Of a stretch of DNA of 64,000 nucleotides, positions 22,816 to 36,563 are shown piece by piece (position 1 is the first letter of the stretch; every line of letters begins with the position of its first letter). The notes beneath the pieces were generated by a model. The model searched no databases. It was not told the DNA's origin and saw only the letters and a list, made by a program, of their open reading frames with translations. The stretch is from Methanobacteriota archaeon (GTDB lineage: Archaea > Halobacteriota > Methanomicrobia > Methanomicrobiales > Methanomicrobiaceae). Location of the stretch: the NCBI GenBank assembly GCA_016841665.1, contig JAENYT010000007.1:1-64000 (forward strand). The letters are read 5' to 3'. Position numbers and translations under genes: made by a program.

Positions 22816-24009
22816 TCACTCTTTTTCACGGATCAATTCCATTGCGTAGGCATCGATGGAATCGAAAAAGGCTTTTTTTGCTTTTCGTGCGTGCTCTTCG
22901 TCTCCCGAGAGGATTTCCCTGGCGAGGTATTCTAGCGGGACAAGATAGTAGACGAATGATTTAAAACGCCCCTTCATTTCCTTTAATTGCGCCATGGACT
23001 CCATTTTTTCATTTTTCATCACGAAAAAGCCGAAATCAAGGAGATGAATGAGGTGAAGCGGCATATCCTTTTCAAGTGCCAGATCCCGGTAGGTGGTATA
23101 TGAAGACGTGCTCCCGGAGAGCAGCGAGAGCTTGATCCCGTAATACACCGGCTCGACCATATCGGGATACTGCTGCCGCATCTGCTTTACCACCCCGGCT
23201 GCACCGACCCCGTCCCGGTCCTCGAGCTTGAGGGAAAAATGCTCTCGCAGGAAAACCATGTCATTGAAAAACCTCTCCGTCGCAAAATTGAGCAATTTTC
23301 TGCGCATATCCTCATTGCGGTCTTTTTTTGCTTTTTCCAGCCCGACCATGGCAAACCAGCGCTCGTTAGGAAGCCATTCCAGGGAGCGTGCGATCATCAG
23401 CCAGAACGCTTCCTTCATCAGCGGGCTGTCCCTGATATCCAGCTGCCGGAGGCGGAAGATGGGCGGCTTCACCCGGGCGAGATCGAGCAGCTGTTCACGG
23501 GCATAGAGTTCCATCTCGCTCGGGGGGCGTTTGCCCCCCGCTGCAGTGACCGTCGGTTCCTGCCGGGAAAGCTGGTAGTAGCAGTAGGCGATATAAAACC
23601 CGATGCGAGCGTCGTATTTCCAGTAATTGCTCAAATAGCTGATGGAATCACGGTATTTTCCGACGGTCATCAGTTTCAGGCCGGCAAGAATATTGAGGCT
23701 TGCTTTCCCGCCTTTTTTCCGTTTCCAGCGGTTTGCATTGTCATTGAGGCGCTCGATGAATTCGATGTCCGATGCCTTCGGGCTGGCCTCCAGTACGCGG
23801 TAGGCAATATCATCGATATAGTCATCATAGGCTGCATCATCAAGATCAGGAAACGAGTGATCCAGCGCGGAGATGACGTGGCCGAAGAACACAGGTAGAT
23901 TGGAATCGATTTTGGCGATATTCTTCTCGATGTACACCGAAAAGTCTTTTTTCATGACATCGAGTTTTTCGTACCTGATGGCGTCCTTTAATTTTTCACC
24001 CCTGACCAT
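22816..24009 (-). CDS. Uncharacterised alpha-helical (possibly TPR-like) protein
   Basis: 397 aa uninterrupted ORF with helical-repeat-like segments (GLKLMTVGKYRDSISYLSNYWKYDARIGFYIAYCYYQL). Confidence 0.7.
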   Translation of the reverse strand: MVRGEKLKDAIRYEKLDVMKKDFSVYIEKNIAKIDSNLPVFFGHVISALDHSFPDLDDAAYDDYIDDIAYRVLEASPKASDIEFIERLNDNANRWKRKKGGKASLNILAGLKLMTVGKYRDSISYLSNYWKYDARIGFYIAYCYYQLSRQEPTVTAAGGKRPPSEMELYAREQLLDLARVKPPIFRLRQLDIRDSPLMKEAFWLMIARSLEWLPNERWFAMVGLEKAKKDRNEDMRRKLLNFATERFFNDMVFLREHFSLKLEDRDGVGAAGVVKQMRQQYPDMVEPVYYGIKLSLLSGSTSSYTTYRDLALEKDMPLHLIHLLDFGFFVMKNEKMESMAQLKEMKGRFKSFVYYLVPLEYLAREILSGDEEHARKAKKAFFDSIDAYAMELIREKE

Positions 24010-24303: not shown

Positions 24304-26076
24304 TTATTTCTTGGACACTTCCGCGTAGTAATACTCGCCGATGGAGCGCTGTTCCCGATCAAGAAAGGATCCGGGTTTGTTGATGCGCGGGCGTCCGGAT
24401 TTGTCCCGCCTGAACGTCACCTGGAGCTCTTTGAGGAAATGGTTCATTCCCTCCTTCATATCGAAGGGGCCGCGTGCCTCGCCGTGCACCCCCGGTTCTC
24501 CGTCGAATACCAGCATCCGTTCGCTGATCATGTCGATCAGGTAGATGTCGTGGTCGATCACAAGGATGCCTGAATCGTTGCCCTCTGCAAATCTCCTCAA
24601 TATACGTGCGAGCTTCACACGCTGCTCGACGTCGAGGTGGGCGCTCGGCTCGTCGAGGATGTAGAGATCCGCGTCCTGGCTCAGGCAGAGTGCGATGGCC
24701 ACCCGCTGCAGTTCTCCGCCGCTCAGGGTGTCCACGCTCGATTGAAGGATGGGGGTGAGGGAGAGCGGTTCGAGAATTTCGTGCTGGTAGAAGGAGCTGT
24801 CGAACCGGTTCGTGGCCTGCCGGAGAATCATCTCGACCGGATCCGAGGAACCTGGCTTGATATACTGGGGTTTGTAGGCAATTTTGAGGGTTTCTTCCAT
24901 GTTCCCCTCGTCCGGCTCTTCCGCACCGGCGAGCAGTTTTGCAAACGTACTCTTTCCGATACCGTTGGCGCCGACGACGCCGAGCACCTCGCCGCACCTG
25001 ATATCCCCTCCCTCTACGTTGAGGGAAAATCCCCCGTAGGATTTTTTCATCGCCGGGAATTCGAGAAGCACCTCGCGGGTGACGTCTCTCGTATGGGCAC
25101 GTTCTTCGAACACCACCTCATATTCACGGAACCGGACGTTCTCCTCGTGGAGGAAGCCTTCCAGGTACTGGTTGATCCCGACACGTACCCCTTTCGGACG
25201 GGTGAGAATACCGAACACCGCCGGTTTTCCGTAGCCGATGTGCACCATATCCGCAAGCATATCCAGGATGGCGAGATCGTGCTCGACGATGATGACGGGG
25301 CGGTCTTTGGCCAGTTCCCGGATGAGCTTTGCTACGGTCATTCTCTGGTATATATCGAGGTACGGGGTGATTTCGTCAAGGAAATAGAAATCGGCATCCC
25401 GTGAAAGACAGGCGGCGATGGATACCCGCTGCAGTTCGCCCCCGCTCAGTGCACTGATGGGGCGTGTCAGAAGGGAGCGCAGCCCGAGTTCGTCGAGATA
25501 TTCATCGAGCTTTCCCCGTTCATCGGTTGATGCGAGCAGCTCGTCGACATTGCCTTTGAAGACTTTCGGGATATAGTCGATGTACTGCGGTTTGAGTGCC
25601 GTCCTGACCTTTCCCTCGGAGACCATCTGGAGATAATCGAAGAGCTCGGTTCCGGTGTAGGCCCTGAGAATCCCCTGCCACGAAGGCTCCTCATCGAACC
25701 TCCCCTGGTTGGGAATCAGCTGCCCGCCCAGGATCTTCACCGCCGTACTCTTCCCGATACCGTTCGCACCCAGAATGCCGATTACCTTCCCTTCCAGGGG
25801 AATCGCCATGCCGTAGAGGGCAAACCCGTTTTGCCCATAGCGGTGGGTGGGATGTTCCAGCTCTTCAGGAAGAGTGACGATATCGATGGCCTCGAAGGGG
25901 CATTTTTTCACGCATATGCCGCATCCAACACAGAGCTCCTCCGAGATGGCCGCCTTGCCATCCTCTCCGATAACCACCGTCTCGTCCCCTGTCCGGACCC
26001 GCGGGCAATAGAGAATACATTCGGTGCCGCATTTTTTAGGGTGGCACCTATCCTTATGAACAACGGCGATGCGCAT
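24304..26076 (-). CDS. Ribosome recycling ATPase ABCE1/Rli1
   Basis: N-terminal Fe-S (CHPKKCGTECILYCP; CVGCGICVKKCPFEAI) and two ABC domains (GANGIGKSTAVKIL, GANGIGKSTFAKLL, LSGGELQRVSIA, LSGGELQRVAIA). Confidence 0.96.
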   Translation of the reverse strand: MRIAVVHKDRCHPKKCGTECILYCPRVRTGDETVVIGEDGKAAISEELCVGCGICVKKCPFEAIDIVTLPEELEHPTHRYGQNGFALYGMAIPLEGKVIGILGANGIGKSTAVKILGGQLIPNQGRFDEEPSWQGILRAYTGTELFDYLQMVSEGKVRTALKPQYIDYIPKVFKGNVDELLASTDERGKLDEYLDELGLRSLLTRPISALSGGELQRVSIAACLSRDADFYFLDEITPYLDIYQRMTVAKLIRELAKDRPVIIVEHDLAILDMLADMVHIGYGKPAVFGILTRPKGVRVGINQYLEGFLHEENVRFREYEVVFEERAHTRDVTREVLLEFPAMKKSYGGFSLNVEGGDIRCGEVLGVVGANGIGKSTFAKLLAGAEEPDEGNMEETLKIAYKPQYIKPGSSDPVEMILRQATNRFDSSFYQHEILEPLSLTPILQSSVDTLSGGELQRVAIALCLSQDADLYILDEPSAHLDVEQRVKLARILRRFAEGNDSGILVIDHDIYLIDMISERMLVFDGEPGVHGEARGPFDMKEGMNHFLKELQVTFRRDKSGRPRINKPGSFLDREQRSIGEYYYAEVSKK

Positions 26077-26082
26077 GGTATA

Positions 26083-26454
26083 TCACTGCGGAAAAATGGT
26101 GCTGGTGAGGAGAAGCGTCCAGGAGATAAACCACAGGGCAAAGGTCATGAACGCCTGGTAAAACCAGTCCTTTCCGCCAAGGGACGTGTAGTCGATTCTG
26201 GCGATCATGAACACGTGCCGCTGAAAGACGATCCCTGCAAGGAGAATAAGCAAGCCGATGATTGCATTGGGTTGTGAACCTGTGGCGGCATCTACCTGGC
26301 CGGCAAAGAAGAATGATGCGATTCCTGCAAGAATTCCCATCATACAGGCGATAGCTGTCCGGAGGATGCGCACATTGTGCGCTGCCTTCTTGTCAACCTG
26401 CGCGGACGCCCCAGCGCTCTCCACAACCGCCTCTTTCGGGTTCTCGTTACTCAT
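26083..26454 (-). CDS. EMC6-like small membrane protein
   Basis: MSNENPKEA... with three hydrophobic segments; ORF track start at 26616 is too long and would overlap the opposing RqcH start. Confidence 0.55.
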   Translation of the reverse strand: MSNENPKEAVVESAGASAQVDKKAAHNVRILRTAIACMMGILAGIASFFFAGQVDAATGSQPNAIIGLLILLAGIVFQRHVFMIARIDYTSLGGKDWFYQAFMTFALWFISWTLLLTSTIFPQ

Positions 26455-26510
26455 CTGGACACCAGTGCAGTATTTTTTAGTGCTCAGACCATATGTAATT
26501 TGGTATATCA

Positions 26511-28406
26511 ATGGCGACACTGCAGGGAATGAGCGGGATCGATGTGCGGTGCATGATCTCCGAGCTGGGATCACACCTCCCGCTCTGGGTAGGGAAAATC
26601 TACCAGTATGATCCAAGGATCCTCGGGTTCCGGTTGAACGGGGAGGAAAAGACCAGACATCATTTTATTATTGAATCAGGCCGGCGTGCGCACCTTACAG
26701 AACACCTCCCTCCCGCACCCCCCAACCCGTCGGGATTCTCGATGCTGCTGAGGAAGTATCTTCTCGGGGGAAAAATCCTTGCTATCAGACAGCACGGGCT
26801 CGAGAGGATCTTTGAATTTGTCGTGGGTAAACGCGATACCACCTACCACCTCGTGGTCGAACTCTTCGATGAAGGAAATATCGTGCTCTGCGATGAAGAA
26901 TACCGGATCATCAAGCCCCTCTGGCACCACCGGTTCCGCACCCGGGAGGTAGTGCCGGGAGCGATATACACCTTTTCCGGCCCGCAGTCTGCAGATCGAT
27001 CAATTGAGGAGATCGCCGAGGTGCTGAACGAATCGGACCGGGATCTCGTCAGGACCCTTGCGACGTCGCTTTTTCTCGGGGGATCGTACGCGGAAGAGGT
27101 GTGCCGGATTGCCGGAATCGACAAGGAGACGCCCGCATCTGCAGCGGACCCGGACAGGGTGCAAAGAGCCTACCAGCAGCTGCTTGCACTGGCTGAGGGC
27201 GGGGGAAAGGCGATCGCCGGCGCATCGGGGGCCTGGGTCGTGCAGGAAGACTACGAAGCAGACGGAGAGGTATTTTCCCGCTTCAACGATGCACTGGACG
27301 CCTTCTATCCGCGCGTCGAGGGAAGGTTTGAGGAGGAAGCAAAACCCCGGCTCACCCGGGAAGAGCTGATACGAAGACAGCAGCTGGATGCGATTGCAAA
27401 ATTTGAAAAGCGAATCGAACGCCTCGAGAAATCAGTCGAAGCAATCTACGGCAACTATGCGCTGGTCAACGACATCATCAACACCCTCGATCAGGCGAGC
27501 AGGGAGCGTTCCTGGCAGGACATCGAAACGGTTCTCAAACAGAGCGATAATCCGGTTGCAAAGGCGATCAGGGCAATCCATCCTGCAGAAGCGGCGGTGG
27601 AAGTCGATCTCGAGGTGCCGGTGAAGATTTACGTACACGAACCCCTCGAGGCGAATGTGGGACGGTACTACGACCAGATAAAAAAGTTCAAGCGGAAGCG
27701 GGAAGGTGCCCTTCGCGCCATGGAGCGGCCATTCAAAGCAGAGCCCTCGAAAAAGAAGGAGTACGCATTTTTAAAGCCGCGCTGGTACCACAGGTTCCGC
27801 TGGTGCTATACCAGCGACGGCGTGCTGTTGCTCGGCGGGCGCGATGCGTCACAGAACGAGGATCTCGTCAAGCGATACCTGGAGGGAGGGGACACGTTCC
27901 TCCACGCGGATGTGCACGGGGCAGGTGTCGTCCTGGTCAAGGGTGAAACCGAACACATGGACGAAGCGGCTCAATTCGCGGCATCGTATTCGAATGCATG
28001 GAAATCCGGGCATTTTTCTGCCGACGTGTATGCCGCACGCCCGGACCAGGTAAGCAAAACACCTGAAGCCGGGGAATATGTGAGCAGGGGTTCGTTTATC
28101 ATCCGGGGAGAACGGAGATATTTCCGCAATGTGCCGCTGGGCGTGGCCATCGGCATCCAGGTCGAGCCCTCTGTTGCCGTGATCGGCGGCCCGGTGAGCG
28201 CGGTAGCGGGAAAAGCAAAGGTATGGGTCGTGCTCGCCCCCGGTCAGTACAGCCCGAACGACACGGCAAAAAAGGTGCTCCGCACCCTCAGGCAGAGCCT
28301 TGGGGAGGACGAGGTCAGCGGGTTGAAGCGCGCGCTGAATACTGAACAGGTCGCCGCCTTTGTGCCCCCGGGCGGATCAGATATCGTGGAGACGCATGAA
28401 GGCTGA
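26511..28406 (+). CDS. rqcH: Ribosome rescue protein RqcH (NEMF/Rqc2 homologue, NFACT family)
   Basis: 631 aa; NFACT-N start (MSGIDVRCMISELGSHL), coiled coil, C-terminal NFACT-R (KPRWYHRFRWCYTSDGVLLLGGRDASQNEDLVKRYL...DTFLHADVHGAGVVLVK). Confidence 0.93.
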   Translation: MATLQGMSGIDVRCMISELGSHLPLWVGKIYQYDPRILGFRLNGEEKTRHHFIIESGRRAHLTEHLPPAPPNPSGFSMLLRKYLLGGKILAIRQHGLERIFEFVVGKRDTTYHLVVELFDEGNIVLCDEEYRIIKPLWHHRFRTREVVPGAIYTFSGPQSADRSIEEIAEVLNESDRDLVRTLATSLFLGGSYAEEVCRIAGIDKETPASAADPDRVQRAYQQLLALAEGGGKAIAGASGAWVVQEDYEADGEVFSRFNDALDAFYPRVEGRFEEEAKPRLTREELIRRQQLDAIAKFEKRIERLEKSVEAIYGNYALVNDIINTLDQASRERSWQDIETVLKQSDNPVAKAIRAIHPAEAAVEVDLEVPVKIYVHEPLEANVGRYYDQIKKFKRKREGALRAMERPFKAEPSKKKEYAFLKPRWYHRFRWCYTSDGVLLLGGRDASQNEDLVKRYLEGGDTFLHADVHGAGVVLVKGETEHMDEAAQFAASYSNAWKSGHFSADVYAARPDQVSKTPEAGEYVSRGSFIIRGERRYFRNVPLGVAIGIQVEPSVAVIGGPVSAVAGKAKVWVVLAPGQYSPNDTAKKVLRTLRQSLGEDEVSGLKRALNTEQVAAFVPPGGSDIVETHEG

Positions 28407-29421
28407 ATTCGGTGAATTAAAGAGAAATTACGGGGAAATCAGGCTTTTCCCTGAATCGCTCGACGATCTCTGGCACATGAAGCACCTGGTCAGGTCCGGC
28501 GACCTGGTCTTTGCGACCACCTTCAGGAGCATGGATTCGGTCTCGGATAAACTGCGCCCGGAAAAATCAGAAAAAAAGCCGGTGAGACTCGGGATACGCG
28601 TTCAGAAGGTTGAATTCCACCATCATGCCAACCGCCTCCGCATCAGCGGGACGATCGAACACGGGGTCGATGAAGGGTTCCACCATACCCTCAACGTGGA
28701 GTCCGGATACGAGATTTCCGTGATTAAAACCTGGAAATCCACCGACCTCGATCGCATCGACCGTGCGGTGAAGGCCTCGTCGGCCGGGGTGACACACGTG
28801 GTCTCCATCGAGGAAGGCGAGGCGCAGATCTTTCGCATGCGGCAGTTTGGTCCCGAACAGGTGAGGACCATCACCGTCGGCAGCGCCAAGCGCGAGGGGA
28901 TCGACGGGAGGGGGATGTTTTTTGCCGAGGTCGCGTCCTCCCTTGCGGATATCAGCGGCCCGGTGGTTATCGCCGGACCGGGGTTCGTGAAAGATGATTT
29001 TATGGGATACCTGCGTTCTCACGCCCCCGATCTGGCTTCACGGTGCATTCTTTCGGAAACGAGGAGGGTGGGGCACGGAGCGGTGCAGGAGGTCATCGGG
29101 CAGGGTGTGCTCGACAGGATCACAGAGGATGTGCAGCTCGCCCGTGAAGTGCGGCTGATGGAAGAGCTGCTCAGGCGCATCGGGACCGGCGGCGCCGCCG
29201 CATACGGGGTTGAGGAGGTGCGAAAAGCCATCGACTTCGGGGCGGTCGACGAGGTCATGGTGTGCGACGAGATGATGCTCGATGCCGAGGTGGAAAACCT
29301 TCTCGAGCGGGCAGAGCAGATGCGGGCGACGATCGTCGTCTTTTCCACAGTGTTTGAACCCGGCGAACAGCTCATGTCGCTCGGGGGCATTGCGGCGCTG
29401 TTGCGGTTCCCGATTCAATAA
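28396..29421 (+). CDS. pelA: mRNA surveillance protein Pelota (Dom34)
   Basis: MKAEFGELKRNYGEIRLFPESLDDLWHMKHLVRSGDLV; eRF1-like domains; start overlaps rqcH stop. Confidence 0.95.
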   Translation: MKAEFGELKRNYGEIRLFPESLDDLWHMKHLVRSGDLVFATTFRSMDSVSDKLRPEKSEKKPVRLGIRVQKVEFHHHANRLRISGTIEHGVDEGFHHTLNVESGYEISVIKTWKSTDLDRIDRAVKASSAGVTHVVSIEEGEAQIFRMRQFGPEQVRTITVGSAKREGIDGRGMFFAEVASSLADISGPVVIAGPGFVKDDFMGYLRSHAPDLASRCILSETRRVGHGAVQEVIGQGVLDRITEDVQLAREVRLMEELLRRIGTGGAAAYGVEEVRKAIDFGAVDEVMVCDEMMLDAEVENLLERAEQMRATIVVFSTVFEPGEQLMSLGGIAALLRFPIQ

Positions 29422-29572: not shown

Positions 29573-30325
29573 TTATTCTTCCTGTTCCTCGATTTCCGTC
29601 GATTCTGGTATCTCTTCAGGCACCTCGGCTGCTTCCTCTATCGGTTCGGCGGCCTCTTCGGCCTTTGCCGGGCGCGTGAACATCTCTTTCAGGACGACCT
29701 CATTCACCCCGTCAAGGTATTCAAAGATCTGGTGGACGGCCATTCCCCTGCCCATCATCCACTGGCGGTCATAGGAGATTCCCGGGGGAAGCAGTATGGT
29801 GAGTACCCCGTCGGAGAGTTCGACTTCCATGTCGCGGCCCGAGAAGAGGTTGATGAGGGCTTTCGCCTGTTCGACCGTATCTTCGACGGAATCTTCGATC
29901 TTGAAGGTATACTGGAGTGTCTTTCCCGCCAGCGGATGGTTGAAGTCGACCACGGCACGCTTGCCAATCACATTGACGACCACCCCTTCACGCCCTTCAG
30001 AGCTGACGCGTGTACCCACGGTGGGTTTTTCCTGGAAATCCTTCACCGGAGCGGAGCGCACAAGGTTTTCGTCGCGCGGACCGTACGCTTTCTCGGCGGG
30101 AATCTCGATCTCGCCCTCGTCGCCGATCTCCTTGCCGACGAGCGCCTCATCGAGCCCGGCAAGCACGTGCATGCTGCCGACGCGGACGACAATGGGTTCG
30201 TAGGGTTTCTTGGGGGTGTAAATCCCGCCTTCTTTTGCCTTCTCCTCATCAGTCGTATCGAAGATCTCTTCATCCACCAATCCGGTATAGGAAATTTTAA
30301 CAAAGTCACCTTCCTGAACTGTCAT
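29573..30325 (-). CDS. FKBP-type peptidyl-prolyl cis-trans isomerase (SlyD-like)
   Basis: GDFVKISYTGLVDEEIFDTT...VLAGLDEALVGKEIGDEGEIEIPAEKAYG; VDFNHPLAGKTLQYTFKI. Confidence 0.93.
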   Translation of the reverse strand: MTVQEGDFVKISYTGLVDEEIFDTTDEEKAKEGGIYTPKKPYEPIVVRVGSMHVLAGLDEALVGKEIGDEGEIEIPAEKAYGPRDENLVRSAPVKDFQEKPTVGTRVSSEGREGVVVNVIGKRAVVDFNHPLAGKTLQYTFKIEDSVEDTVEQAKALINLFSGRDMEVELSDGVLTILLPPGISYDRQWMMGRGMAVHQIFEYLDGVNEVVLKEMFTRPAKAEEAAEPIEEAAEVPEEIPESTEIEEQEE

Positions 30326-30381
30326 GCATTCACCTAAACTATATTAAATCGAGAACTACATACAAAATAATTTTGACGCCT

Positions 30382-30909
30382 ATGTATGAAATCGAAGTAA
30401 AAGTACGGGTTGATGACCTTGACGAGGTCCGCAGCCGCTTAACGGAACACCGCGCGGAAAAACACCGCGATGAATCACAAACCGACGTGTATTACAATGC
30501 ACCGCACCGCGATTTTGCCGAGACGGATGAGGCGCTGCGCGTCCGCTATACCGGCGGCGTTCCGGAGATCACGTATAAAGGGCCAAAAATTGCCTCCTCA
30601 GGAGTCAAGGCCCGCAGAGAGATCAACATACGGGTTGATTCGGGGGAACGATTTGAGGACTTGCTGACGCAGCTCGGATTCACGCGTACGGCAAGCGTGG
30701 CAAAACATCGGGAGGAATACCGCTGGCACGGAGCCTCGGTAGCTCTCGATTCAGTTGAAGGGCTCGGTACCTTTGTGGAAATCGAGGTGATGACCGAGGA
30801 GGACCGGGACGGCGCAGAAGCACACATTCTTGAACTGGAAAAGATACTGGGGGTGCAGGGCGCCCACATCCCGGATTCGTATCTGGAGCTGATCCTGGCT
30901 AAAGCGTGA
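30382..30909 (+). CDS. cyaB: CYTH-domain class IV adenylate cyclase-like protein
   Basis: MYEIEVKVRV...ALRVRYTGGVPEITYKGPK...ALDSVEGLGTFVEIEVM. Confidence 0.88.
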   Translation: MYEIEVKVRVDDLDEVRSRLTEHRAEKHRDESQTDVYYNAPHRDFAETDEALRVRYTGGVPEITYKGPKIASSGVKARREINIRVDSGERFEDLLTQLGFTRTASVAKHREEYRWHGASVALDSVEGLGTFVEIEVMTEEDRDGAEAHILELEKILGVQGAHIPDSYLELILAKA

Positions 30910-31540
30910 GCAGCTCGATGGTGAAATCCTTCGCCGTGTCCCCGAAATGGATGAGCGCACAGTCTCCCTGGGAGGCCATGCCCGGGTTGACCACCGTCAC
31001 CCCGCCGCACTCTTTGATTCCCTTTTCTTCATGAATGTGCCCGCAGCACACCAGATCGAAATCCTCCATATGCGTTCTCAGGCTGGCGCTTCCCACGTGC
31101 ATCTCGCCGATGCAGTCGAGGGTCTCGAGGGGAGGTGCATGCGCCACGAGCACATTGTGTACGTTGCGCTTCATCTTTCTCTTGGCTTTCACGAGCAGTT
31201 CGTCGATCTCCTCCTCGCTGAGCTCAAACGGAGTATCGAAGGGTGTGGGATTGGATGCGCCGATACCTGTGAACGTAATGGCTCCTATCTCGATCGACGA
31301 TCCGTGCAGGCCGACCGCATCCGAACGTTCAATCACATCCAGAATTTCGCGGGGGTCGCAATTCCCGGGCACGACAAAGCAGGGCATATCAAATTTTGAG
31401 AGCAGGTCCTTCGCCTGTTCCGCAGGGCCGCAGTCGGTCAGATCCCCGGCGATGAGCACCATGTCGGGGTTCAGCTCGAGAAACCGGTCAATATGCTCGT
31501 AACAACCGTGCAAATCCGAGAGGAGGAGCACATTAATCAT
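30899..31540 (-). CDS. Metallophosphoesterase (YfcE-like)
   Basis: MINVLLLSDLHGCYEH...LIAGDLTDCG...VPGNCDPREIL...CCGHIHEEKG. Confidence 0.88.
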   Translation of the reverse strand: MINVLLLSDLHGCYEHIDRFLELNPDMVLIAGDLTDCGPAEQAKDLLSKFDMPCFVVPGNCDPREILDVIERSDAVGLHGSSIEIGAITFTGIGASNPTPFDTPFELSEEEIDELLVKAKRKMKRNVHNVLVAHAPPLETLDCIGEMHVGSASLRTHMEDFDLVCCGHIHEEKGIKECGGVTVVNPGMASQGDCALIHFGDTAKDFTIELLTL

Positions 31541-32724: not shown

Positions 32725-33129
32725 TCACGCCCCGATCTTCAGCGACCCTTCAGTGCCGTCGACCGTGGCGGGGCTGTCATTCTCCAGTTCAGCGAACGCA
32801 ATTTCAGGACGGTCGATCATCGGAATCCCGGCGATGATCGCCCCCACGGCAACAATGGGCTCTGCCTCTTGGTTGATGATGGCGGCCGGGGCTTTTCCGT
32901 TCCGCTGCAGGGCGTACATGACGTAGGACCCCACCGTCGAACCCTTCCCGAAGGGGAAGGCGAGGATCGTCCCCTCGATGGAGACGCCCTCGAGCGGGTG
33001 ACCCTGTTCGATCACCACGCCTGATTCGGGGTCCACACCCGAGAGGAATGATATCGGTGCATTGCTCACCAGCAACGGCCCTGTACCCGTCCCTTTCGCA
33101 ATCGGTCTGGCCCGGATTATCACTTCCAT
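32725..33129 (-). CDS. DUF126 / phosphomevalonate dehydratase small subunit-like protein
   Basis: 134 aa; LSGVDPESGVVIEQGHPLEGVSIEGTILAFPFGKGSTVGSYVMYAL. Confidence 0.85.
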   Translation of the reverse strand: MEVIIRARPIAKGTGTGPLLVSNAPISFLSGVDPESGVVIEQGHPLEGVSIEGTILAFPFGKGSTVGSYVMYALQRNGKAPAAIINQEAEPIVAVGAIIAGIPMIDRPEIAFAELENDSPATVDGTEGSLKIGA

Positions 33130-33166
33130 ACCACATAAATGGTGTGAGAATCAAGTATATATTGCC

Positions 33167-34324
33167 ATGGAAGAGACCATCTTCAACGCATCGGGCGGCG
33201 ATACCGACCTTTCCGGTCTGCAGGTGCAGGATTTGAAGGCAAAACTGCTCGATTTGAAAATGAAAAATGATCTCCTACTCAAGGAGAACAACCAGCTCAA
33301 ACGGGAAAATAATCAGCTGAAGCGCCCTCCGCTCTTCGTCGCCGTGGTGCTGGATACCATGGAAAACAGTGAGGTCTACCTCAGGCAGCAGGGAAACAAC
33401 CAGGAATACATCTCCCAGACCATCGATGAACTTCGCGACGCACTCAAACCGGGGATGAAGGTCGCGGTCAATAATACCCTCTCCATCGTCAGGATCGTCG
33501 GCAACACATTTGACACCCGGGTGCGGGTGATGGAGCTCGATGAATCACCGGAGGTCGATTTCAGTCAGATCGGGGGATTGAGAGAAGAGATCGAAGAGGT
33601 CCGCGAAGCAGTGGAATACCCCCTCACCAAACCCGAGATCTTCAAGCGGATCGGCGTGGAACCGCCGAAGGGAATCCTGCTTCACGGTCCCCCGGGTACC
33701 GGCAAGACCCTCATCGCCAAAGCGGTCGCTCACCAGGCAAACGCCGTGTTCATCCGCATGTCGGGAAGCGAGCTCGTACACAAGTTCATCGGCGAGGGGG
33801 CGCAGATGGTGCGTGAACTCTTCACCCTTGCACGGGAACGCGCTCCTTCCATCGTATTCATCGATGAAATCGATGCAATCGGCAGCATGAGAACACAGGA
33901 CGGGACGTCGGGAAGTGCAGAGGTGCAGCGCACCCTGATGCAGCTCCTTGCGGAGATGGACGGCTTCAACAACCGCGGCGACGTGCGGATCATGGCGGCC
34001 ACCAACCGTGTCGATATGCTCGATCCCGCACTGCTCAGGCCCGGAAGGTTTGATCGAATCCTTGAAATACCGCTTCCTGACGAGGATTCGCGCCACGAAA
34101 TTCTTAAAATCCATTCGGCAAAGATGACCCTGGATGCGGTGGACTTCAGGGAGCTTGTCCGGCTCACCGAAAATTCCACCGGTGCAGAACTGCAGGCAAT
34201 CTGCAGGGAGGCAGGAATGATCGCAGTCAGGCGGGACGCCGACAGTGTGGAGATGAACGATTTCCTGAACGCGGTGAAAAAGGTAAAGAACAAATCCTGT
34301 GCCGAGGATAGAATGTTTCTGTAA
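33167..34324 (+). CDS. pan: Proteasome-activating nucleotidase (PAN), copy 1
   Basis: Coiled coil plus AAA+ [28 protein letters not shown]; start set at MEETIFNASGG. Confidence 0.93.
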   Translation: MEETIFNASGGDTDLSGLQVQDLKAKLLDLKMKNDLLLKENNQLKRENNQLKRPPLFVAVVLDTMENSEVYLRQQGNNQEYISQTIDELRDALKPGMKVAVNNTLSIVRIVGNTFDTRVRVMELDESPEVDFSQIGGLREEIEEVREAVEYPLTKPEIFKRIGVEPPKGILLHGPPGTGKTLIAKAVAHQANAVFIRMSGSELVHKFIGEGAQMVRELFTLARERAPSIVFIDEIDAIGSMRTQDGTSGSAEVQRTLMQLLAEMDGFNNRGDVRIMAATNRVDMLDPALLRPGRFDRILEIPLPDEDSRHEILKIHSAKMTLDAVDFRELVRLTENSTGAELQAICREAGMIAVRRDADSVEMNDFLNAVKKVKNKSCAEDRMFL

Positions 34325-34325
34325 T

Positions 34326-34778
34326 ATGAAACTCCTCCTCGTCCAGCGTGAGGCAACAGACCTCCATTCAACTCTTTTATCCTCGGAAACGAGCAGAAAT
34401 ATTCTCAGATTTTACCGGCCGAAACGGCTCGATTACGGGGTGTCCATCACCTGTGCATCGCTGGGAAGTGTGCTCTCCCTTGCCTCGGAACTTCGGTGGT
34501 ACCTGCGCCGGTACGTGCAGGAAGCCATCGTCGAAGTCTCCCCCGAAACGTTCTGCACGCTGGCCCTCGCCGAGGAGATCTACCAGCGCCGGGAACCGCA
34601 TGAGGCTGACTGGAACCACAAAAAACGCATCGGCATACGGGAAGGGGCAGTGGCCGCAGTTGCGTGGCCGGGGCTGGAGAGCGAACCCGAAGACCAACCG
34701 GACATTGCCGACGGGATGGATACCGTTCTTGACGTCTGGTGCAGTGAATCCGAATTCCTGCAGGACAAAAAAGATTAG
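34326..34778 (+). CDS. Uncharacterised small protein co-transcribed with PAN copy 1
   Basis: ATG one nucleotide after the PAN stop codon; 150 aa uninterrupted; no family recognised. Confidence 0.65.
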
Positions 34779-36013
34779 GCGAACATGGCACCGAATGTGG
34801 TGCCAAGATGGTTTCTGTTAAAGCCGAGCCCGACCTTTTCGATGGCACGGAGGAAATCGTCATGCGTGACAATTTCCCTGTCCGCACGGATGGCATACAT
34901 GCCCGCCTCGGTGCAGATCGCCTTGAGGTCGGATCCGTTTTTCCCTTCGGTGAGCCTGGAGATCTCGCCGAGATTGACGGTTTCGTCGAGATTCATGTTG
35001 TCGGTGTGGATCTTGAGGATCGAGAGCCGACCCTCGAAATCGGGCAGCGGGATCTCGATGATGCGGTCAAACCTGCCCGGCCTGAGCAGCGCGCGATCGA
35101 GGATGTCGATGCGGTTCGTCGCACCGATGATCTTTACATCCCCTCTGGTCTCGAACCCGTCCATCTCTGCAAGGAGCTGCATCAGGGTGCGCTGCACCTC
35201 GCGGTCACCCGAGGTGGTGCTCTCGGTGCGGTGGGCACCGATGGCGTCGATCTCATCGATGAATATGATGGACGGGGACTGTTTTTTGGCCAGCTCGAAG
35301 AGCTCTCGCACGAGTCGGGCCCCCTCACCGATATACTTCTGCACCAGCTCCGAGCCCACGACGCGGAGGAAGTAGGCGTTCGTCTCGTGTGCCACCGCCT
35401 TGGCGAGCAGGGTCTTGCCGCTACCCGGCGGGCCGTAGAGCAGCACTCCCTTGGGAGGCTCGATCCCGACCGTCTTGAAGAGATCGGGCTTTTTCAGGGG
35501 CAGCTCAACGGCTTCCTGAATTTCGGTAATCTGCTGGCCAAGGCCGCCGATATCCCCGTAGTTCTCGAGCGGGGACTCGAGGACTTCCATGCCGTACACC
35601 GCCGCATCGTAGGACTGCGGCAGCACCTCTACGATGGCCAGAGACTGCTGGTTGAGGGAGCAGCGGATCCCCGGCTTGAGGGATTCGGGTTCGATAAAAT
35701 TCGACGTGCGGACCAGGAAGCGGGGCCCCGCACTGCTGCGGATGATAACCCGGTTCGCGTCGATGACGTCGGTGATGGTCCCGATAACAAGAGGAGGGCT
35801 GCGCAGTTGTTCGATTTCACTTTTCAGCTTTCGAATTTCCCGCTCATACCGTATTTTCTGGGTTTCGATATACCGCTTTTCGGATTCGAGCTGGCGCACC
35901 TGCTCGCGCAGCTCCATATTGCGGCTTTCGAGATTGGAGATCCTCTCCAGTAAATATTTGGCTATGTCCTCCTCGTTATGAGAATCCGGAGTGTGTTTGG
36001 GCTTTTCTCCCAT
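34775..36013 (-). CDS. Proteasome-activating nucleotidase (PAN), copy 2
   Basis: [11 protein letters not shown]..., coiled coil, [39 protein letters not shown] track start at 36202 rejected (runs into the MBF1 gene). Confidence 0.92.
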
Positions 36014-36071
36014 TTGTCTCCTCAAATAGATATATAGGTATAAATGACTATAAAGATGTTTGCAGATTGAC

Positions 36072-36563
36072 ATGCAATGTGAATTGTGTGGGGCTAAAAT
36101 TCGAGGAGCCCCAAAAATTGTCCGTATCGAAGGTGCAGAGCTGCGGGTTTGCGGCCAGTGCGCACGGCTGGGGACCGAAGTGCACCGCCCGCCTGCGCGC
36201 ACCAGTGCGCAGAAAAGGACACCCGGAGCCCCGGCCTCTCCTCCACGAAGACGATCGCGCGATATTTTTGATATGATGGAGGGGGAGATTGTCGACGATT
36301 ACTCCGACCGTGTTCGCAACTCCCGTATGCAGAAAGGGTGGAGCCAGAAAGACCTCGCCATGAAACTCAAGGAAAAAGAGCTTCTGATAAAGAAGATCGA
36401 GAAAGGCGACCTGATCCCGGAGGATGATGTGAGAAAGAAACTCGAACAGATTCTCGGGATCAGTCTTCTCGATACGTCGACCGGGGATCTTTCCACAGAG
36501 ACGGGCGGCAAACTCACCACGACTTTCGGCGATCTGATAAAGATCAAAAAGGGTGGAAAGTAA
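36072..36563 (+). CDS. Multiprotein bridging factor 1 (MBF1)-type transcription factor
   Basis: N-terminal Zn ribbon [35 protein letters not shown]-terminal [37 protein letters not shown]. Confidence 0.93.

Follow-up and report, generated by a model that had tools for sequence, protein, structure and literature searches.

Ribosomes are split by the ATPase ABCE1 acting with either Pelota or aRF1, and RqcH binds the split 50S subunit with its peptidyl-tRNA. ABCE1 works in every round of translation, at all termination events. In B. subtilis the RqcH residues 97DR98 contact the tRNA anticodon at G35, and the D97A/R98A substitution ablates RQC (PMC8373112). Emc6 and Emc3 constitute a minimal insertase, and fused to each other they act as an insertase in yeast mitochondria (PMC8887752). 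An archaeal EMC6-YidC heterodimer has been predicted with high confidence, both the homology and the pairing with YidC being argued from HHpred and AlphaFold2 (Lewis and Hegde 2021, PMC8675477), and archaeal EMC6 as a partner of YidC is already published. The passages of that paper concerned with gene position note only EMC6-like genes lying far from the ribosomal-protein/SecY/YidC cluster, and leave ABCE1 unmentioned. Release and rescue factors have been linked through their gene context, the same approach as is taken here (Int J Mol Sci 2019, PMC6514570), but the links described in its gene-context passages are to hibernation factors and RtcB, not between rqcH and pelota or EMC6 and ABCE1, and its main text contains no word starting with 'membrane'. 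A search of the open-access literature, with subscription papers mostly outside its reach, found no paper that connects archaeal EMC6 with ABCE1, and the novelty of this link is provisional.

The window, i.e. the whole stretch of 64,000 nucleotides analysed here from an archaeon of the order Methanomicrobiales, carries ABCE1, a small EMC6-like gene, rqcH and pelota in immediate proximity:

24304..26076, minus strand: ABCE1 (aRli1), the ribosome-splitting Fe-S ABC ATPase, 590 aa (NF009945, Fer4_RLI, ABC_tran)
26077..26082, minus strand: EMC6-ABCE1 spacer of 6 bp, the ABCE1 ribosome-binding GTGAT overlapping the EMC6 stop codon (from the sequence)
26083..26454, minus strand: EMC6_arch, 123 aa, three TM helices, first gene in the EMC6-ABCE1 pair (PF19094)
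26455..26510, no strand assigned: putative divergent promoter region, 56 bp, 37.5% GC (by-eye alignment across the order)
26511..28406, plus strand: rqcH, archaeal NEMF/Rqc2 family, 631 aa (NF041120, NFACT_N, NFACT-R_1)
26802..26807, plus strand: codons GAG AGG for RqcH E98-R99, the DR-motif position (alignment with human NEMF VDRIV and yeast DQDRIL)
28396..29421, plus strand: pelota (aPelota/Dom34), 341 aa (TIGR00111, eRF1_1, eRF1_3)

The four ORFs (ABCE1, EMC6_arch, rqcH and pelota) are intact and all score above the curated Pfam and NCBIfam cut-offs, which bears out the ABCE1, EMC6-like, RqcH and Pelota identities of the original prediction, as the coordinates bear out its divergent layout, with a gap of about 56 bp at 26455-26510 and rqcH overlapping pelota, here by 11 bp at the rqcH 3' end. 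ABCE1 reaches 914.8 bits against NF009945 (cut-off 469), the score of an RLI equivalog, matches the Pyrococcus ABCE1 structure 3bk7 at E=1.6e-204, and has eight N-terminal cysteines (the set for two [4Fe-4S] clusters), two Walker A motifs NGIGKST and two signature motifs LSGGELQR. Pelota is an equivalog of TIGR00111 at 296.1 bits (cut-off 177.65), its domain 2 match being weak. The locus therefore resembles the ABCE1-Pelota/Dom34 splitting system in holding both factors with full domain sets and the catalytic and Fe-S motifs of ABCE1, but by layout ABCE1 and pelota belong to two divergent units and not to one transcript. The likeness to RqcH/NEMF/Rqc2 quality control lies in the NFACT-N plus NFACT-R architecture of RqcH and its 663 bits against the RqcH_arch equivalog model NF041120 (cut-off 400); the difference lies in the DR motif, where Glu takes the place of Asp in this RqcH and either Glu or Gln does so in the whole order.

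Around the four genes, pelota is followed at 29573-31540 by genes for an FKBP-type isomerase (with an FKBP26-like insert domain), a CYTH protein and a phosphoesterase, present in 13/13 genomes of the family and in roughly half of those from the remaining order. Two convergent PAN-like (proteasome-activating) AAA ATPase genes, identified by eye only, lie 4 kb past pelota (33062-36202). Downstream of ABCE1 a 397-aa ORF with no Pfam or NCBIfam match (22816-24009) is kept in 13/13 of the family.

The small protein belongs to the EMC6_arch family (Pfam PF19094, 105.2 bits against a gathering cut-off of 26.7, covering model positions 1-87 of 87), and its AlphaFold2 model has three predicted TM helices (pLDDT 86 over the full length, 95.5 in the core). 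A three-TM small subunit, EMC6_arch family membership and an EMC3-like partner in the genome are features it shares with the EMC3-EMC6 core of the ER membrane protein complex and the archaeal YidC-EMC6-like heterodimer. It differs from the latter in that the partner gene is on another contig, the single EMC3/TMCO1-type gene of the host genome (PF01956 EMC3_TMCO1, 148 bits) being located on the separate contig C68. Of the EMC6-like identity originally predicted, family membership stands, while the fold match is top-ranked yet statistically weak alone. Yeast EMC6 (6wb9_6) and human EMC6 (7ado_F) are ranks 1 and 2 of 350,542 PDB chains in Foldseek, with full-length alignments and TM values of 0.41 and 0.47, and with E values of 1.6 and 2.2, both above 1, the match lends weak support through its rank and not its significance. 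T33, G40 and G44 align with T31, G38 and G42 of human EMC6, the spacing of this TM1 motif, T-x6-G-x3-G, being identical in the two proteins, and the eukaryotic EMC6 model PF07019 weakly matches 6/75 relatives (best E 4e-4). A profile search with PF07019 gives no match in the host genome, PDB sequence searches with EMC6_arch, single and profile, return no EMC6, and in hhalign comparison with human and yeast EMC6 TM1 alone aligns (P=0.005, probability 7%).

Since neither the structural nor the profile matches to EMC6 reach significance by themselves, and the nearest genomic partner is ABCE1 and not the EMC3-like gene, the small protein could be viewed as an ABCE1-specific membrane anchor or regulator instead of an EMC6-type insertase subunit. 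This is very improbable given the full-length Foldseek ranks of yeast and human EMC6, the PF07019 matches among relatives and the common TM1 spacing, and it is likewise at odds with the pairing of the EMC6-like protein with archaeal YidC by HHpred and AlphaFold2, argued in the EMC6 passages of PMC8675477, and with the location of EMC6-like genes away from ABCE1 in other phyla. By analogy with the published work on relatives, EMC6_arch would have an insertase role.

Thermoplasmata EMC6-like proteins (L230:1492-2649, L231:712-1851 and L235:1150-1851; 233-385 aa) have a three-TM domain and, after it, a long stretch predicted to be extracellular; two of these proteins also have a C-terminal TM. 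ABCE1 is not among the neighbouring genes, which include one of aminoacyl-tRNA-synthetase-like type. Open frames of near 385 aa in this group were considered as EMC6-EMC3 fusions and rejected, the extra part being a predicted ectodomain and not EMC3.

An EMC6_arch orthologue is present in 195/197 genomes of the phylum, and an EMC6 orthologue in 58/60 relatives. Outside the order, EMC6 and ABCE1 are adjacent on the same strand, within 10 kb, in 34/39 genomes from other families of the phylum, and the gap between them has a median of 14 bp over 93 loci, being 30 bp or less in 76 of these. Slow rearrangement could in principle keep such pairs together without any functional coupling. Indeed, the family of the window is collinear over the whole region, including the chemotaxis and FKBP genes (12-13/13 for most), and a nearby divergent pair has promoters conserved equally well. 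Taking the local flanking genes of the window as the synteny baseline, most of 13 comparable genes (chemotaxis, FKBP, CYTH, phosphoesterase, radical-SAM, PAN-like and others) are kept at 12-13/13 within the family, but in the 39 regions from other families of the phylum they fall to 0-1/39, against 34/39 for ABCE1 beside EMC6. The linkage of EMC6 to ABCE1 therefore exceeds synteny inertia, and with operon-like spacing also retained, synteny inertia, already disfavoured, is a very unlikely explanation. Synteny at the level of the family is uninformative; EMC6-ABCE1 linkage at phylum depth is informative. It hints at joint production of ribosome recycling and membrane insertion capacity. The pair is lost in ANME-1 and some Archaeoglobaceae-like (f9) genomes. 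The adjacency was not found in sampled loci of Thermoplasmatota, Nitrososphaeria, Thermoproteota, Altiarchaeota, DPANN and one Asgard genome, a named sample that is without Methanobacteria, Methanococci and Thermococci and in which divergent EMC6 may be missed. Beyond the phylum the two genes are generally not neighbours, so their coupling is not needed in archaea at large.

RqcH and pelota are a separable pair in their own right. Both are present in 34/34 genomes of other families, outside the order, and comparison of coordinates places them directly adjacent in 15/34, within 5 kb on the same strand in 8/34 and apart in 11/34. Their spacing has a median of -4 bp in 54 loci, and at loci holding both pairs these two genes usually overlap. 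In Methanomicrobiales the whole set of four fits within 10 kb in 41/41 other genomes sampled (40 regions and L110). The divergent layout of the window recurs in 36 of these, with Methanoregula, Methanolinea and Methanomicrobiales MAGs as the named loci, one (L053) has a 4.8 kb insertion, and in the four of genus g12 (L047, L052, L056 and L061) rqcH-pelota is inverted in place, leaving rqcH, pelota, EMC6 and ABCE1 all in one direction and still adjoining. In other families of the phylum rqcH and pelota are near EMC6 in 7/39 genomes. Conservation across genomes, which had been set beforehand as a check on the original prediction, thus extends well past one genome, with 41/41 in the order and 7/39 elsewhere in the phylum, but the four genes do not occur together wherever they are present, as would be expected of a single operon or module. 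Of the co-regulated four-gene module that had been proposed, what survives is the constant association in the order; across the phylum it splits into EMC6-ABCE1 and rqcH-pelota, pairs that are joined only in the order and a few other families.

It has to be weighed whether the four genes even so make up a single module dedicated to ribosome quality control, with EMC6 assisting when nascent membrane proteins stall at the insertase. This would conform to their association throughout the order (41/41) and on other deep branches, to the conserved short divergent promoter region, to the adjacency that rqcH-pelota keeps even where inverted in one genus, and to the layout of Archaeon NM3, outside the phylum, in which rqcH is divergent from EMC6 with ABCE1 one gene further. 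Against it, when the set breaks up across the phylum it is rqcH-pelota that moves off and EMC6 that remains with ABCE1, EMC6 beside rqcH without ABCE1 nearby was found at none of the loci examined, and ABCE1 serves every termination event. EMC6 tracks ABCE1 and never rqcH alone, and this context therefore ties it to general ribosome recycling, not to quality control. A dedicated quality-control role of EMC6 is possible but, since EMC6 stays with ABCE1 and not rqcH, it is not favoured, and we hold the single-module explanation to be unlikely.

In an ABCE1 tree (FastTree) the four-gene layout is seen in f15, which branches deepest in the phylum, in f28 (the sister of f9), in L184, in the f11/f16/f19 clade and in Methanomicrobiales, where some rows labelled 'none' or 'two' are merely cut contigs. 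The presence of the four genes together on deep branches fits an ancestral arrangement with later separations. The simplest reading of the tree would accordingly have the four-gene arrangement as ancestral, with rqcH-pelota later moving off and EMC6-ABCE1 being lost in ANME-1 and some f9 genomes. In Archaeon NM3 (L169:1810-6952) rqcH is divergent from a 94-aa EMC6-like gene, which is followed by the gene for a 321-aa coiled-coil membrane protein and then ABCE1. The ABCE1 and RqcH trees both place this genome outside the phylum, on a long branch, and its layout tentatively suggests that the arrangement may be older than the phylum.

TATA-like sequences CTAAAAAATA (minus strand) and CATATGTAA (plus strand) are positioned back to back in 26455-26510, consistent with back-to-back promoters between EMC6 and rqcH. 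Across the order the 56-bp region shows good conservation, an alignment by eye giving the consensus CACCAGTAGTCTATTTTTTAGTG..CCATATGTAATTTGGTATA; the nearby, ordinary FKBP/CYTH divergent promoter region is equally conserved. An operator-like block in the 56-bp region was considered as a shared regulatory site but rejected, given the equal conservation of the FKBP/CYTH promoters and the genome-wide occurrence of the pattern, 9 times against 6 for the reversed control, which gives no sign of a regulon. Shared regulation of the two divergent units is plausible.

We consider it probable that the locus consists of two ancient two-gene units placed head to head, EMC6_arch-ABCE1 and RqcH-Pelota, and that EMC6_arch is a YidC/EMC3-type insertase subunit made with ABCE1. 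The genes within each pair would be co-transcribed. In the proposed mechanism Pelota, at stalled ribosomes, or aRF1, at stop codons, would act with ABCE1 in ribosome splitting, and RqcH would bind the 50S-peptidyl-tRNA left by the splitting of stalled ribosomes. EMC6_arch would serve as the small subunit of a membrane insertase of the YidC/EMC3 type, together with the EMC3-like partner that this genome encodes at another site. The EMC6-ABCE1 operon would make insertase subunit and recycling ATPase jointly, so that both capacities follow translation, and the RqcH-Pelota operon would make both stalled-ribosome factors jointly. Each of the gene families is known, but a phylum-wide operon joining an insertase subunit to the universal ribosome-splitting ATPase would be a functional link for which no report was found and for which Haloferax and Methanosarcina are tractable hosts. 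It bears on how ribosomes are recycled at the membrane and on what EMC6 does in organisms other than eukaryotes.

A further and more speculative reading, which we rate as rather unlikely, is that ribosomes docked at the membrane are acted on jointly by ABCE1, EMC6_arch and the YidC/EMC3-like partner of EMC6_arch, so that splitting (after termination or Pelota rescue) is coupled with the chain being released into the insertase. To this the rqcH-pelota pair would have been joined ancestrally to clear stalled membrane-protein synthesis, and the RqcH of Methanomicrobiales would have changed its tRNA-reading residue (Asp to Glu/Gln), such that C-terminal tails, if there are any, may differ from alanine.

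The RqcH of the window has Glu-Arg (E98-R99) at the DR motif. Across the order the Asp is absent from 50/50 sequences, being replaced by Glu in 27 and Gln in 23, whereas it is present in 29/29 other archaea compared; the Arg is invariant. The order thus keeps the Arg but not the Asp of the conserved Asp-Arg expected of a tRNA-Ala-selecting (tailing) RqcH. Among 69 columns that are at least 95% invariant outside the order, just two are lost in every member, the DR Asp and its neighbour (Phe to Leu/Ile/Met). In the RqcH tree the order forms a single clade whose stem is long (0.84) and within which the residue has switched repeatedly between Glu and Gln. Glu at the DR position is also seen in some other phyla (9/22 rows), Gln being limited to the order, and the Glu in RqcH of other archaea calls for caution in any functional reading of the substitution. 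Loss of the Asp may signify altered tRNA choice, weaker tailing or neutrality. No paper on RqcH with Methanomicrobiales was found in the open-access literature, and the order-wide loss is a natural experiment on tRNA choice by NEMF-family proteins.

RqcH is present as two separate pieces on different contigs in two Altiarchaeales genomes and one Woesearchaeota genome (L290/L293, L291/L296 and L292/L295). The break falls at nearly the same model position in each case, about 375-380 when both ends can be seen, which suggests split rqcH genes.
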